Assembly (NCBI RefSeq): GCF_014204975.1
Contig: NZ_JACHMM010000001.1
Location: forward strand, 5,952,037-6,016,036
Direction of reading: 5' to 3'
DNA from: Jiangella mangrovi
GTDB taxonomy: Bacteria; Actinomycetota; Actinomycetes; Jiangellales; Jiangellaceae
DNA length: 64,000 nucleotides
A model generated the notes under the pieces. It saw nothing but the letters and a program-made list of their open reading frames with translations, was not told where the DNA came from and made no database searches. Each line of letters opens with the position of its first letter. The first letter of the stretch is position 1. The position numbers and the translations under genes were made by a program. This document shows positions 2,621-37,778 of the stretch, in pieces.

Positions 2621-2763
2621 ATTCAGCACCGTCTCATGTGTCGACTCCATCACCGTAGCGCTGAAACGTCCCAGCAGGGCGCCGCGTGTTCGATTCGAGA
2701 CCGAAATGAGGGAATCCGCACACTTGGGGTGCGGCGAGGGTGCAGCGAGGGCGCTGCCGCGGC

Positions 2764-3978
2764 TCAGAGCCGGTCGCGGACGAGGTCCCAGACGACGTGG
2801 GCGAGCGCGGACTTGGGGCCGTTCTCGACGGCGACGGAGCCGCCGTCGGCGCTCAGGATGACGGCGGCGTTGTCCTCGGACTCGAAGCCGCGGTCGGCGC
2901 CCACCTCGTTGACCACCAGCAGGTCGCAGCCCTTGGAGGCCAGCTTGGCCCGGCCGTGGTCGAGGACGCTGCCGGAGGCGTCGCCGGTCTCGGCGGCGAA
3001 CCCGACCACCACCTGCGCGGGGCTGGGCCGGTGCGCGGCCAGGTGGGCCAGGATGTCGGCGGTGCGTTCCAGCTCGATGACCGGCGACGAGCCGTCGGCC
3101 GACTTCTTGATCTTCGTGTCGGTGTACGCGGCCGGCCGGAAGTCGGCGACGGCGGCGGCCATGACCACGGCGTCGGCGTCGGCCGCCGCGGCCACCATGG
3201 CGTCGAAGAGCTGCGCGGCCGACCCGACGCGGACGAGGTCGACGCCGGCGGGGTCGGGCAGCGCCACGTTGGCCGCGACCAGCGTGACCCGGGCGCCGCG
3301 CGCGGCCGCGGCCCGGGCCAGCGCGTAGCCCTGCCGCCCGGACGAGCGGTTGCCCAGGAACCGGACGGGGTCGAGGTGCTCGCGGGTGCCGCCCGCGGAG
3401 ACGACGACGTGCCGGCCGGTGAGGTCCGGTCCGGCGCCGCCGCGGCCCAGCACGTCGGTGACGTAGGCGACGATGTCGGCGGGCTCGGGCAGCCGGCCCT
3501 TGCCGGTGTCGGCGCCGGTGAGCCGGCCCACCGCGGGCTCGACGACGAGCGCGCCGCGCTTGCGCAGCGTCTCGACGTTGGCGACGGTGGCCGGGTGCTC
3601 CCACATCTCGGTGTGCATGGCCGGCACGAAGATGACCGGCCCACGCGCCGTGAGCAGGGTGGACGTCAGGAGGTCGTCGGCCATGCCGGCCACCGCGCGG
3701 GCCATGAGGTCCGCCGTCGCCGGCGCCACCAGCACCAGATCGGCGTGTCGGCCGATGCGCACGTGCGGCACCTCGTGCACGTCGTCGAAGACCTCGGTGT
3801 GCACCGGACGGCCCGACAACGCGGCCCAGGTCGGCTCTCCGACGAAACGGAGGGCCGACCTGGTGGGAACCACGGTGACGCCGTGGCCGGACTCGGTGAG
3901 CCGGCGCAGCACCTCGGCGATCTTGTAGGCGGCGATGCCACCCCCGACGCCGAGGACGATTTCAATCTGCCGGGTCAT
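2764..3978 (-). CDS. coaBC: Phosphopantothenoylcysteine decarboxylase / phosphopantothenate-cysteine ligase
   Basis: The bifunctional coenzyme A enzyme (404 residues, normal length). The N-terminal CoaC flavoprotein half shows LGVGGGIAAYK and a substrate loop PAMHTEMWEHPAT. The C-terminal CoaB half shows VVSAGGTREHLDPVR, the NRSSGRQG loop and AVADFRPA. The loop reads PAMH where E. coli has PAMN; I believe the His form is common in actinobacteria, so this is not taken as damage. It lies 123 bases after rpoZ with a hairpin between, in the usual actinobacterial order gmk-rpoZ-coaBC. The expected next gene, metK, is absent and a sugar importer follows instead. Confidence 0.95.
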   Translation of the reverse strand: MTRQIEIVLGVGGGIAAYKIAEVLRRLTESGHGVTVVPTRSALRFVGEPTWAALSGRPVHTEVFDDVHEVPHVRIGRHADLVLVAPATADLMARAVAGMADDLLTSTLLTARGPVIFVPAMHTEMWEHPATVANVETLRKRGALVVEPAVGRLTGADTGKGRLPEPADIVAYVTDVLGRGGAGPDLTGRHVVVSAGGTREHLDPVRFLGNRSSGRQGYALARAAAARGARVTLVAANVALPDPAGVDLVRVGSAAQLFDAMVAAAADADAVVMAAAVADFRPAAYTDTKIKKSADGSSPVIELERTADILAHLAAHRPSPAQVVVGFAAETGDASGSVLDHGRAKLASKGCDLLVVNEVGADRGFESEDNAAVILSADGGSVAVENGPKSALAHVVWDLVRDRL

Positions 3979-30180: not shown

Positions 30181-31419
30181 GTGGGCGTGGTGACCGCGGC
30201 CGGACTGCTCAGACACGACGGCGCGTTCCGGACGCTGTTCGCGGCGCGGACCATCTCGTTCCTCGGCGACTCGCTGAGCCTGGTCGCGCTCATGCTCTAC
30301 GTCGCCGACACCGCCGGGCAGGCGCTGGCGGTCGCGCTGCTCCTGCTGGTCGGCGACCTCGCGCCGGCGCTGCTCAGCCCGCTGGCCGGCGCGGTGAGCG
30401 ACCGCTGGGACCGGCGCCGGGTGATGATCGCCTGCGAGCTGGTGCAGGCCGGGCTGCTCGCGGCGATCGCGCTCTCGCTGCCGCCGTTGCCGCTGCTGCT
30501 CGTGCTGGTGGGCACGCGGGCGATCGCCGGGCACGTGTTCCTGCCCGCGTCGCGGGCGGCCGTGGCGACGCTGGTCCGGCCGGGCGACCAGGCCGCCGCG
30601 AACTCCGCGCTCGGGCTGGCGACCAACGGCGGCGAGGCGGTCGGCCCGCTCGTCGCGGCGGTGCTGTTCCCGCTGGTCGGCGTCCGGGGCGTGCTGCTGG
30701 TCGACGCCGCGACGTTCCTGCTGTCGGCGCTGCTGCTCCTGCGGTTGCCGCAGCTGCCGCCGTCGGCACCCGATGGGGAGCCGGGGAACGACGGCGGCGG
30801 CTCGCTCCTGCGCGGGGCCCGCGAGGGGCTGGCGTACCTGTGGCGCGAGCCGGCGCTGCGGATCATCGGGCTCGGCTTCTGCGCGGTCGTCGCGTTCAAC
30901 GGGATCGACGACGTCGCGCTGGTGGTGTTGGCGACGGACACCTTCGACGCGGGCGACTCGGCGGCGGCGACGCTGCTGGCCGCCGTCGGCATCGGGCTGT
31001 TCGCCGGGTACGCGCTACTCGCCCGCTGGTCGGCACGGGCGTCGATGCTGTGGCTGCTGCTCGCCGGGTTCGCCGTCAGCAGCGTGGGCAATTTGCTCAC
31101 CGGGCTCGCGTGGGCGGTCGCCGCGGCGTTCACCCTGCAGGCGGTGCGCGGCCTGGGCATCGCCGCGATGGACGTCGCGACGAACACGCTGCTGCCGCGG
31201 CTGGTGCCGGACGCGATGCTCGGGCGGGTCTTCGGCAACCTCTACGGCGCGATCGGCCTCGCCGCCGGGGTGTCGTACGTGGCCGGCGGCCTGTTGCTCG
31301 ACGCGACGTCCGCGCCGGCGACCTTCGTCATCGCCGGCGTCGGGGGCACGCTCGCCACCGTCGCGGTCGCCGTCACGCTCCCCCGGGAACTTCGCCGAAA
31401 AAGATCGGCGGAAGTGTGA
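30181..31419 (+). CDS. MFS transporter (drug-exporter type)
   Basis: A 412-residue inner-membrane transporter with about 12 helices. The loop 2-3 signature is SPLAGAVSDRWDRRRVMIACELVQAG, and helix 5 carries GGEAVGPLVAAVLFPLVGVRG, as in the MFS_3/enterobactin-exporter group. A charged central loop (PPSAPDGEPGNDGGG) separates the halves. The start is GTG 30181; an in-frame GTG three codons on is possible. The stop codon lies inside the terminator hairpin at 31403-31439. Substrate unknown. Confidence 0.87.
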   Translation: MGVVTAAGLLRHDGAFRTLFAARTISFLGDSLSLVALMLYVADTAGQALAVALLLLVGDLAPALLSPLAGAVSDRWDRRRVMIACELVQAGLLAAIALSLPPLPLLLVLVGTRAIAGHVFLPASRAAVATLVRPGDQAAANSALGLATNGGEAVGPLVAAVLFPLVGVRGVLLVDAATFLLSALLLLRLPQLPPSAPDGEPGNDGGGSLLRGAREGLAYLWREPALRIIGLGFCAVVAFNGIDDVALVVLATDTFDAGDSAAATLLAAVGIGLFAGYALLARWSARASMLWLLLAGFAVSSVGNLLTGLAWAVAAAFTLQAVRGLGIAAMDVATNTLLPRLVPDAMLGRVFGNLYGAIGLAAGVSYVAGGLLLDATSAPATFVIAGVGGTLATVAVAVTLPRELRRKRSAEV

Positions 31420-33715: not shown

Positions 33716-33771
33716 CCATGATCATCAATGATCCGACCCCCTATGGGTGGTTGGATCATTGATGATCATGG
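33716..33771. repeat. Perfect 19-bp inverted repeat, AT-rich arms
   Basis: CCATGATCATCAATGATCC (33716-33734) is exactly inverted at 33753-33771, around an 18-base loop that itself holds GACCC/GGGT. It begins 10 bases after the sigma stop codon and may terminate that transcript. Its ATGATCATC core recurs in the next hairpin, so the two may belong to one family of palindromic elements. Confidence 0.85.
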
Positions 33772-34216: not shown

Positions 34217-34789
34217 ATGATCGTCCGGCAACGGGTCCGGCGGGCGGCCATCGCCCTCGCCACGGCCGTCATCGTGCCCATCGGCCTGCTCGCGACCAGT
34301 GTCGCCGCGGAGGCCGCGACCACCTACAAGGGCAAGGTCACCGAGGGCGTCAACGTCCGCAGCGCGCCGACCAGCTATGCCACGAAGGTCGGGTCGTACG
34401 CCAAGGGCGCGACCATCACGATCCAGTGCAAGGTGTTCGGGCCCACCGTCAGCGGCAACAGCCTCTGGTACAAGCTGGCGACCGGGCGCTGGGTGTCGGC
34501 GCGCTACGTCGCGAACGTCGGCGCCGCGCCGCGCTTCTGCGGCGACGGCAAGGAGTACGTCGGCCGGGTGTCGTCGTCGACGGCGCTCGCGGTGCGCAGC
34601 GGCCCGAACACGGCGAACCCCAAGGTCAGCTCCGCCCCGCGCGGCTCGAACCTGGCCATCGTCTGCAAGGTCGACTCGCAGACCATCGACGGCAACCGGC
34701 GCTGGTACCAGCTCACCGGCGACGGCGGCGGCCAGTGGGTGTCCGCGCGCTACGTGACGAACATCGGCGCGGCCCCGCCGTACTGCTAG
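34217..34789 (+). CDS. Secreted protein with two bacterial SH3 domains
   Basis: A 190-residue secreted protein. A Sec signal peptide (basic head, hydrophobic core, AEAATT cleavage region near residue 34) precedes two SH3b-like repeats: VNVRSAPTSYATKVGSYAKGATITIQCKV...WVSARYV and LAVRSGPNTANPKVSSAPRGSNLAIVCKV...WVSARYV. Each carries Cys residues that could form a disulfide. A strong ribosome site (CAGGAGGTCC) precedes the ATG. No catalytic domain is attached, so it probably binds cell-wall peptidoglycan. Confidence 0.87.
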   Translation: MIVRQRVRRAAIALATAVIVPIGLLATSVAAEAATTYKGKVTEGVNVRSAPTSYATKVGSYAKGATITIQCKVFGPTVSGNSLWYKLATGRWVSARYVANVGAAPRFCGDGKEYVGRVSSSTALAVRSGPNTANPKVSSAPRGSNLAIVCKVDSQTIDGNRRWYQLTGDGGGQWVSARYVTNIGAAPPYC

Positions 34790-34829
34790 AGACCCGCTCG
34801 AGCCCTCTCAGGGGAACGACGGCGCCGCC

Positions 34830-36080
34830 TCACATCCGGGGCGGCGCCGTCGCCGTTCGCGGCTTCACCCCGAGCAGTGCGAACGCCAGCGCCCCGGCCG
34901 CCGTCAGGGCCAGCAGCGTCAGCCCGACCCCGTAGCCGTCCAGCAGCACCTCGTACGTCGCCCCCATGACCAGCGGCGGGAAGAAGCCGCCCAGTCCGCC
35001 GGCCGCGCCGACGACGCCGGTCACCGTGCCGACCTTCTCGGGCGGCGCCAAGCGAGCCACCCACGCGAACACGCCGCCGGTCCCCAGCCCCAGGAAGAAC
35101 GCGAGCAGCACGAACTCGATGCCGGCGGGCACCTCGAGCGGCGGCTGGAACGCGACCAGGATCGCCATGACCGCCGTCCCGGCCAGCGAGATCGCGACCA
35201 CCGTCCGCGGCCCGATCCGGTCGGACAGCACGCCACCGACGGGCCGGGCGACGACGGCGGCCAGCGCGAAGCCGGCGGTGCGGGTGCCGGCCGCCGTCAG
35301 GTCGAAGTCGTAGATGTCGTTGAGGTAGGTCGGCAGGTAGGTCGAGAAGGCCACGAACCCGCCGAACGCCACCGCGTACAGGAACGACATCTGCCACGTC
35401 ACCGGCAGCCGGACCGCGTCGTTCAGCTTGGGCAGGACCGGTGCGGTGTTGGGCGACCAGGTCGGCGCGTCGCGCATCAGCAGCCAGCACACCCCGGCCG
35501 TCGCGACGAGCGCCACGGCCACGATCACGTGCGTCGCCACGTAGCCGAACCAGTCGACGAACCGGGGCGTGAAGAACGCCGAGAGCGCCGTCCCGCCCAT
35601 GCCCGCACCGAACACGCCGGTGGCGAAGCCGCGCCGCGACTGCTCGTACCAGGCGTTGACGAACGGGATGCCGACCGCGAACGTCGTGCCGGCGATGCCG
35701 AGGAAGAACCCGAACACCAGCAGCAGCGCGTACGACCCCGCCTCGCCGGCCACTGCCACCAGGACCACGAACGGCGCCGCCGCGACCATGAGGACGGGGA
35801 ACATCAGCCGGCCGCCGAACCGGTCGGTCAGGGCGCCGGCCAGGATTTGCTGGGTCTCCCAGGTGATGATTCCGTCCTTGACGTACACCTTCCAGGAGCA
35901 TGAGCCGGTGCAGTTGACGCCGTGGGTCGACCGGACGACCTCGTCGTGGCTCCACCGGTCCCGATAGAAGACGTCGCCCTGCCGGCCGCCCTCCCTGAAC
36001 ACCACCCGCCCGTCGGCGGACTCGTCCCAGCGGGTGAAGAACCGGCCCGCCTTCAGCAGCGCCTCCGACGCCGGCCCGTC
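34830..36080 (-). pseudogene. narG-narK deletion relic: NarG N-terminus joined in frame to NarK
   Basis: Upstream part: the frame reads [17 protein letters not shown] and then [38 protein letters not shown], the N-terminus of respiratory nitrate reductase alpha subunit (NarG). At about 35846 it passes without a stop into [14 protein letters not shown], a nitrate/nitrite MFS transporter (NarK) that lacks its first helices and about 70 residues. The rest of narG, narH, narJ, narI and the start of narK are missing. No ATG or GTG precedes the NarG part in this frame; an ATG exists only in another frame. A GTG at 36005 would give 391 residues. I treat it as a relic of one large deletion. Confidence 0.85.
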
Positions 36081-36357
36081 GACCCCGGCCGGTTCTCCTC
36101 GGGTCGCTCCTCGGACTGGTCCTCGCGCTGGGTCCCATCGGGCGACCTCGTTCCCGTGGTCGGCCGCCTCGCCCTCCCCTGCGCGAGGCGATGTTTCCGA
36201 GCATGGACATGATCACGAGAGCGAGACACGGATCACGCGAAACTCTCTTCACACAGGTCGCGGACGCCACGGACGCGCGGGCCGCCCCGAGTTGGACAGA
36301 GCACCCCGCGAGTTTGGTATGGTTACGCAGCCGCTGGCGCTCCACGAAGCGCAGCAA

Positions 36358-36442
36358 GTCCGGGTGGCGGAATAGGCAGACGCGCTAGCTTGAGGTGCTA
36401 GTCCCCGTCAAGGGGGTGGGGGTTCAAGTCCCCCCTCGGACA
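36358..36442 (+). tRNA. tRNA-Leu (anticodon GAG)
   Basis: The acceptor stem GTCCGGG pairs with CTCGGAC (one G-T pair) and A is the discriminator base. The anticodon arm is CTAGC-TTGAGGT-GCTAG, which puts GAG at positions 34-36. A long variable arm (CCCCGTCAAGGGGG) marks a class II tRNA, and the T-arm holds GGTTCAAGTCC. CCA is not encoded; CTC follows. Length 85 bases. Its 3' end is repeated at 57077, so it is a likely integration site. Confidence 0.95.
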
Positions 36443-36443
36443 C
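36429..36443 (+). other. Putative attachment site in the tRNA-Leu 3' end
   Basis: TCCCCCCTCGGACAC here matches TCCCTCCTCGGACAC at 57077-57091 in 14 of 15 positions and in the same orientation. The second copy lies at the 3' end of a recombinase remnant. I infer an attL/attR pair. From 36444 to 36629 nothing else is recognised. Confidence 0.5.
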
Positions 36444-36629
36444 TCTTCATTGTGCCCCTCATCAGCAGAGATGTTGGTGAGAGTTCACGTCATCGCGGCG
36501 TGCCCATGGCTACGTCACCGATTCGTCGGTCTCTGAAGGATCACGATGCAGGTGTGCCCGCGCAACCGTACCTGCGCGCCCCGAGGGCCGGCCGAGCCCA
36601 CCCTCCGTCCGGCCGAGGCGTCGGCGGTC

Positions 36630-37778
36630 TCACCACTCTGCGAGCGAGCCGTCGGGATGCCGCCAGATCGGCGCCCGCCAGCGATGACCGTCCTGGGCGA
36701 CTCGACGGACGGCCTTCTCGTCGATCTCCAGGCCGAGACCAGGCGCCATCGGCCGCTCGACATACCCGTCACGGACGGAGAAGCCGGCCGGATCGACGAG
36801 GTCGCCCAGGAGGCCGGCGGCCTTGCCGTCGTGCAGGCCGAGTGCCTGTTCCTGGATGAGGAAGTTGGGCGTGGCGAGGTCGACCTGCAGGCAGGCGGCC
36901 AATGCGATCGGGCCCAGTGGGCAGTGCGGTGCCAGAGACACGCCGTGGATCTCGGCCATGGCGGCGATCCGGCGGCATTCCGACACCCCGCCCGCATGGG
37001 AGAGATCTGGCTGGGCGACAGCGATTCCGCTGGCCAGGACGTCGCGAAAGTCCCAGCGGGAGTACAGCCGTTCCCCCGTCGCGATCGGCACCGAGGTCGT
37101 CGCGGCGATGCTCACCAGCTCGCTAGAGAGCTCCGGAACGACCGGTTCCTCGACGAACAGGGGGTGGAACTCCTCGAGCAGAGGCAGCACGCGGCGGGCC
37201 ATTGCCGGGGAGAACCGGCCGTGGAAGTCGATGGCGAGGTCGGCGTCCTGGCCGATCGCCGCGCGCACGGCCGCCACTCGTGCCACCACCGCGTCGATGC
37301 GTGCCGGCGTGTCGATGGTGGCGACCGGATCGTCCCACCCGTTGAACTTCACCGCCGTCAGCCCGGTCGCCATGGCCTCGGCCGCCTGGTCGGCCAGCTC
37401 CTCGGGCCCTGACCCGTGTACCCAGGCATAGATGCGCACCCGCTCCCGAACCGGTCCGCCGAGCAGCTCGTGCACGGACGCGCCTCGCGCCCGGCCGGCG
37501 ATGTCCCACAGTGCCTGATCGATGCCGGCGACTGCACTGGACAGCACCGGGCCGCCCCGGTAGAAGCCGGCCTTGGTCAGCACCTGCCAGTGGTCCTCGA
37601 TGCGCAGCGGATCGCGCCCGACGAGCTGGTCCGACAGCTCGTCGACGGTGGCGGCCACGGTCGCGGCCCGGCCCTCCAGCACCGGCTCGCCCCAGCCGAC
37701 CACACCGTCGTCGGTTTCGATGCGCAGGAACAGCCAACGCGGCGGGACGGTGAAGGTCTCGATTCGGGTGATCTTCAT
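36630..37778 (-). CDS. dgoD: D-galactonate dehydratase
   Basis: A 382-residue enolase-superfamily enzyme that dehydrates D-galactonate to 2-keto-3-deoxy-galactonate. It follows the E. coli DgoD pattern closely from memory: MKITRIETFTVPPRWLFLRIETDDGVVGWGEP at the start, AIDFHGRFSPAMA (metal Asp and catalytic His), LFVEEPV (metal Glu), IATGERLYSRWDF, QPDLSHAGGVSECR and LAPHCPLGPIALA (catalytic His). The start at ATG 37778 gives the family length. It is the last gene of the glycan-use operon. Kinase and aldolase for the product are not in the window. Confidence 0.93.
   Translation of the reverse strand: MKITRIETFTVPPRWLFLRIETDDGVVGWGEPVLEGRAATVAATVDELSDQLVGRDPLRIEDHWQVLTKAGFYRGGPVLSSAVAGIDQALWDIAGRARGASVHELLGGPVRERVRIYAWVHGSGPEELADQAAEAMATGLTAVKFNGWDDPVATIDTPARIDAVVARVAAVRAAIGQDADLAIDFHGRFSPAMARRVLPLLEEFHPLFVEEPVVPELSSELVSIAATTSVPIATGERLYSRWDFRDVLASGIAVAQPDLSHAGGVSECRRIAAMAEIHGVSLAPHCPLGPIALAACLQVDLATPNFLIQEQALGLHDGKAAGLLGDLVDPAGFSVRDGYVERPMAPGLGLEIDEKAVRRVAQDGHRWRAPIWRHPDGSLAEW

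Follow-up and report, generated by a model that had tools for sequence, protein, structure and literature searches.

The NarG-NarK open frame of Jiangella mangrovi is very probably the remnant of a young deletion in a nitrate-respiration locus

In the window, the 64,000 nt stretch of the Jiangella mangrovi genome analyzed here, the minus strand from 36080 to 34830 forms a single open frame that begins as NarG and continues as NarK. Does this frame encode a transporter with a piece of a redox enzyme at its head, or is it what remains of a lost nitrate-respiration locus? The first 78 residues of the hybrid come from the NarG N-terminus, and the rest runs from NarK residue 66 (G003 numbering) to the end. 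Residues 8–79 match the narG family TIGR01580 (profile 3–75 of 1235, E 1.5e-23) and residues 79–365 the NarK family TIGR00886 (profile 55–368, E 5.3e-44) in NCBIfam. In BLAST against intact loci, the narG side extended at most from 36083 to 35848 and the narK side from 35846 to 34830. The in-frame junction described in the sequence-only reading was thus confirmed by both methods, and the 391-residue frame that it placed at 34830–36005, starting at GTG 36005, exists as claimed. The NarG head is 88.6% identical in DNA to genome G004 over 36083–35848 and matched E. coli NarG chains in the PDB; an aligner forced it onto NarK TM1-2. The features of the frame are as follows.

36136–36138, minus strand: ATG aligned to the start codon of narG in relatives, out of frame with the NarG head
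35848–36083, minus strand: narG remnant of about 78 recognizable N-terminal codons, ending in ITWETQQ (TIGR01580, identity to G004, PDB matches)
35846–35848, minus strand: deletion junction, with base 35847 (A) ambiguous (eight intact loci compared)
34830–35846, minus strand: narK remnant from the codons past the TM2 arginine to the stop, with no frameshift or premature stop (profile, BLAST, omega 0.043)
34830–36005, minus strand: 391-codon open frame across the join with a GTG start and no clear ribosome site upstream, judged not to be a functional gene

We compared this place among 12 Jiangella genomes, including that of the window. The narG, narH, narJ and narI genes score above the family cut-offs in the same six genomes; the remaining six, the window's genome among them, have none of the four above the cut-offs. 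All six intact genomes carry narGHJI followed by narK on the same strand and then an SH3_3 gene, which in G010 comes after about 1.7 kb of other DNA. A tRNA-Leu gene lies on the other side, so that both neighbors flank the locus in five of the six; the exception is G004, where the contig begins inside narG and the matching tRNA flank is on another contig. In the window, the same two neighbors flank the hybrid alone.

36358–36443, plus strand: tRNA-Leu (GAG), the left-hand neighbor, found by ARAGORN and adjacent to narG in every intact locus but that of G004
34217–34789, plus strand: gene for an SH3_3-domain protein, the right-hand neighbor (Pfam PF08239; synteny)

The stretch missing from the window amounts to 6,588–6,717 bp relative to the six congeners, or 6,585–6,938 bp when two outgroup loci are added. 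A profile search of the window's own genome gave no match to narH, narJ or narI, and the only narG match besides the head was a weak one below the cut-off (18.7 bits, C1:3709770). The intact ancestral locus thus stands at the same place in close relatives, as expected for a deletion pseudogene. The single narG-to-narK deletion proposed earlier, with narH, narJ and narI lost in between, agrees with all of this, and comparison establishes the deletion and its ends and shows that no other part of the assembly carries the genes. We propose that a deletion of about 6.6 kb joined narG codon ~88 to narK codon 66 (G003 numbering) and destroyed the narGHJI-narK locus in the lineage of this Jiangella species.

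Base 35847, an A, is assignable to neither side of the join, leaving 0–1 bp of microhomology against the eight intact loci; at the corresponding place, the six congeners have G on both sides, and the narK side reads C in one of the two outgroup loci. No repeat or insertion was seen in about 46 bases on either side. Such scant microhomology, together with the lack of a visible insertion, points most naturally to end joining without homology as the way in which the deletion may have arisen. The reading frame across the join would then have been preserved by chance, a one-in-three event.

The site exists in further states within the genus. In an rpoB tree (607 codons), G011 is the sister of the window's genome with a support of 100, several other nodes being weak (22–78). 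In G008, rpoB occurs in two equal-scoring copies and a broken third near the contig ends (C1:5669-8974, 7705135-7708440, 7712455-7715763), perhaps an untrimmed overlap of a circular contig. At the tRNA-Leu/SH3 site of G011 (L150, G011:C136:22500-28500), two separate narG scraps remain at about 2715–3050, and only the last ten or so codons of narK are left. The window holds most of narK and is without the second narG scrap that G011 keeps. A deletion shared by the two was rejected, as each retains pieces lost in the other; since neither set of deletions can be derived from the other, the nar locus is eroded separately in the window's species and in at least one other, its sister G011. In G008 and G009, the tRNA-flank and SH3-flank matches lie 26 and 23 bp apart, respectively, with the last few narK codons included in the SH3 flank and no further nar match between the flanks. 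The two flanks are far apart in G002 and G005, neither of which has narG, narH, narJ or narI above the cut-offs. G008, G009 and G011 have the tRNA-Leu stretch at their empty or scrap-bearing sites and share the SH3_3 gene with the six intact loci.

A hairpin marks the narK end of the site.

34818–34851: hairpin with an outer stem of 12 bp, between narK and the convergent SH3 gene (fold z -2.61)

The right-hand edges of the erased stretches in G008, G009 and G011 fall at 34850, 34858 and 34862, at the hairpin or within about 11 bp of it. A terminator scan did not list this hairpin; it may have been retained for the sake of the convergent SH3 gene, as a terminator shared with narK. At 33716–33771 of the window lies a separate near-perfect palindrome of ~56 bp (hairpin z-score -7.95). 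It occurs at no fewer than 25 places in the genome, its own included (42 matches on both strands, with 40 of 92 candidates scored), and recurs in several congeners, which makes it a dispersed palindromic repeat family.

In five relatives (all but G004), the narG ATG is located 30 bases before the GAC codon of a conserved VDGPAS stretch. The aligned ATG of the window, at 36138, sits 58 bases before that codon and is therefore in another frame, which suggests that a separate change near the narG start moved it out of frame. Reading from this ATG runs through 450 codons of the wrong frame with no stop, so an open frame alone proves little in such GC-rich DNA. In the frame of the head, GTG 36005 is the first ATG, GTG or TTG after the last stop, and the bases upstream of it (gacgggcgg), inspected by eye, show no clear ribosome site. 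The start codon of narK itself, preceded by a GGAGG-like site in several relatives, is deleted. A promoter scan of 34700–36700 returned 0 sigma-70 sites against a mean of 0.1 in shuffled sequences, a result that says little for an actinobacterium. The hybrid is most likely not expressed.

The sister genome bears on the origin of this frame shift. In G011, the ATG equivalent to 36138 is in frame with its own head scrap. Barring a sequencing error, which is conceivable in this GC-rich stretch, only the window's species therefore seems to have the shift. The window and G011 share variant bases after the ATG, a form of the narG start that is absent from the others, and an earlier change in the start region may have been common to both.

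A product of the frame would also be deprived of residues on which both parent proteins depend. In the alignment to E. coli NarK, R65 of G003 NarK corresponds to position 92 of chain 4jr9 and to 89 in 4u4t numbering (the alignments start at 38 and 35, respectively). Hybrid residues 79–416 are the C-terminal part of a NarK of the nitrate/nitrite porter family, to which these E. coli structures belong, but lack residues 1–65, that is, TM1 and TM2 through R89. The R89 equivalent is the last residue lost, the retained part opening at the very next codon, and the F49 equivalent, among the residues before it, is gone as well. R89 and R305, in TM2 and TM8, are described as the nitrate-binding arginines of NarK (PMC4432589, PMC3445494); nitrate is bound by R89 through a salt bridge, and with R89K complementation was lost at all but the highest induction (PMC4432589). 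The hybrid thus retains no counterpart of the first of the two arginines. By alignment alone, it also falls short of the 12 transmembrane helices of NarK, the residues up to R89 being absent, and it scores 150.8 bits on TIGR00886 against a cut-off of 311.7 (profile 55–368 of 368; intact relatives unscored). The transporter had been called otherwise unbroken; this holds downstream of the join only, since the first 65 residues of NarK (G003 numbering) are missing, TM1 and the TM2 arginine among them.

On the NarG side, His63, Cys67 and Cys71 (G003 numbering) are kept, and Cys106 lies beyond residue 88, the last one kept, so that the fourth of the four cluster ligands is lost. The E. coli set, His49, Cys53, Cys57 and Cys92/93, we take to be the ligands of the FS0 cluster. 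These residues are tabled together under the label 'Mo ion coordination' in PMC5338063 (Table 3), and the FS0 assignment is in line with the Arg94 row of the same paper and with a passage of PMC5123574. The match to positions 3–75 of the 1235 in TIGR01580 leaves the head short of a full-length molybdenum-binding domain. Because the fourth ligand is lost, a redox head would not be expected on the hybrid. The functional 391-residue transporter with a redox-enzyme head envisaged in the sequence-only reading is not supported: the ATG of narG leads out of frame, a ribosome site is not evident at GTG 36005, the start of NarK is deleted, and the fourth ligand, TM1 and R89 are lost.

If the remnant were an old relic, its NarK part should have decayed. 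For 328 codons of the NarK tail, taken from the window and six congeners, we compared codon models that allow one or two omegas. Omega was 0.043 on the window branch and 0.059 elsewhere, with no significant difference (lnL -2643.45 vs -2643.92); the data rejected an omega of 1 for the window branch (lnL -2697.14; 2dlnL 107), and a value of 0.1 was already disfavored (2dlnL 8.5). A neighboring MFS gene at 30181–31416 (384 codons), used as a control, gave the same picture, with 0.045 on the branch and 0.075 in the background. The window's NarK tail has seven private changes, none of them at a position where 80% or more of 99 outgroup matches agree; the six congeners each have 0–1 changes at such positions. 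In the head, residue 47 is E (K47E), where 97 homologous matches have K (93), R (3) or T (1) and never E; beyond this change, pairwise dN and dS over the 78 codons gave no clear sign either way. On the NarG side, K47E and the broken start could point to relaxed selection; the tail offers no such sign. These results speak against an old, freely decaying relic, since the expected decay of the NarK tail is absent. The earlier view of the frame as a relic stands in that it is a deletion remnant and needs qualifying in that the NarK part, with its window-branch omega of 0.043, is constrained as in relatives.

An undamaged tail means either that the deletion is recent or that the tail is still used, and the omega values suit both equally well. 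Most of the window branch would have passed under normal NarK constraint. We prefer a recent deletion, since a product would lack its substrate site and its start, and the deletion is probably young. Continued production and selection of the hybrid or of its NarK part, for instance as a truncated membrane protein from GTG 36005 or an internal start, is unlikely, even with an open 391-codon frame, a tail under the constraint seen in relatives and a region upstream of narG that is still partly similar to intact loci. Such a protein would have to do without the equivalents of TM1, F49 and R89 and to be translated without the native start or a clear ribosome site; moreover, the sister G011 has lost the tail, the out-of-frame reading of 450 codons is just as open over the same DNA, and none of 117 other genomes or 154 other loci holds such a protein. 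Marginally less likely still, the truncated NarK part, with or without the head, may have been retained as a working membrane protein whose new role depends on neither nitrate reductase nor the R89 site, which would explain why it is constrained as in relatives. Set beside these, a young deletion pseudogene, formed by the loss of about 6.6 kb and yielding no nitrate reductase and, in all likelihood, no transporter of nitrate, is the reading in which we have high confidence.

Both the join and the start shift are seen in a single assembly, and an assembly error in a strain with an intact nar locus could produce the same picture. This is very improbable, as the genome is a single 7.16-Mb contig that is 99.99% complete, contains no narH, narJ or narI match and no second narG above the cut-off, and shows no repeat in the ~46 bases on either side of the join; the sister species has lost the locus as well. 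When the hybrid was searched against its own genome (E <= 0.001), only its own place and one weak MFS match (2376057) were found.

We then looked for the same composition elsewhere. Among at most 15 scored candidates in each of 117 other genomes, no match reaching into the NarK part started ahead of query residue 60; a few began at residues 60–70 by local extension. Of 156 loci inspected, only L001 and L120, both the window's own place, have a tail that comes straight after the head on the same strand. The other 154 comprise 48 with narK and then narG adjacent, 23 with narG and then narK at a distance, 20 with the two on opposite strands, 24 with the tail only, 16 with the head only and 23 with neither. 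Both parts are thus present in at least 91 of the 154, many of which repeat one genomic place (e.g. L003–L008, L112–L117). A conserved protein of this composition in close relatives, which would have spoken against a relic, was found in none of the 117 genomes or 154 loci, and a conserved NarG-NarK fusion was rejected. In a Propionibacteriaceae MAG (L036:4192-6825), a narG of about 570 codons, containing a frame change, leads into mid-narK; head and tail are 1.5 kb apart, not ~6.6 kb, and not in one frame, and this place is a second narG-to-narK collapse or an assembly error. A literature search on Jiangella nitrate reduction or narG and on actinobacterial narGHJI loss, by title and abstract start, returned nothing on this locus.

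A fused nar protein is known from mycobacteria, where narX has narK2 in its neighborhood. NarX, the 'fused nitrate reductase' of M. tuberculosis and M. bovis, resembles the NarGHI subunits and is expressed, and the review in question assigns nitrate reductase activity to NarG only, not to NarX (PMC7759655). The hybrid would likewise be one protein similar to separate nar subunits; unlike NarX, it joins NarG to a transporter, is present in one genome only and has a broken start. A conserved and selected NarG-NarK architecture after the manner of NarX, which does show that fused nar genes can be expressed (PMC7759655), is hardly credible for a frame seen at the window's own place only.

Another parallel is Corynebacterium pseudotuberculosis, in which the respiratory nitrate reductase is present or absent between the closely related biovars Equi and Ovis (PMC5338063). 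In Jiangella, as in these biovars, one group has the nitrate reductase and a close one lacks it. The difference is that in Jiangella the scar itself is preserved, in frame by chance.

These results point to an ordinary gene loss of a known kind with a neat scar, and no new enzyme or transporter is indicated. Automatic annotation could label the frame as an MFS transporter, which would imply a capacity for nitrate transport that the species probably does not have. The window's own genome has a nirB nitrite reductase gene above the family cut-off (C1:2380766-2383114), as have 11 of the 12 genus genomes, and near it, at 2376057, lies the MFS transporter weakly similar to NarK. As nirB and this MFS gene are kept, nitrogen-oxide assimilation may persist even where nitrate respiration has been lost. 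A respiratory operon has been caught after its loss, probably soon after, with intact, half-eroded and empty versions of one site within a single genus, a series that is useful for dating gene loss.
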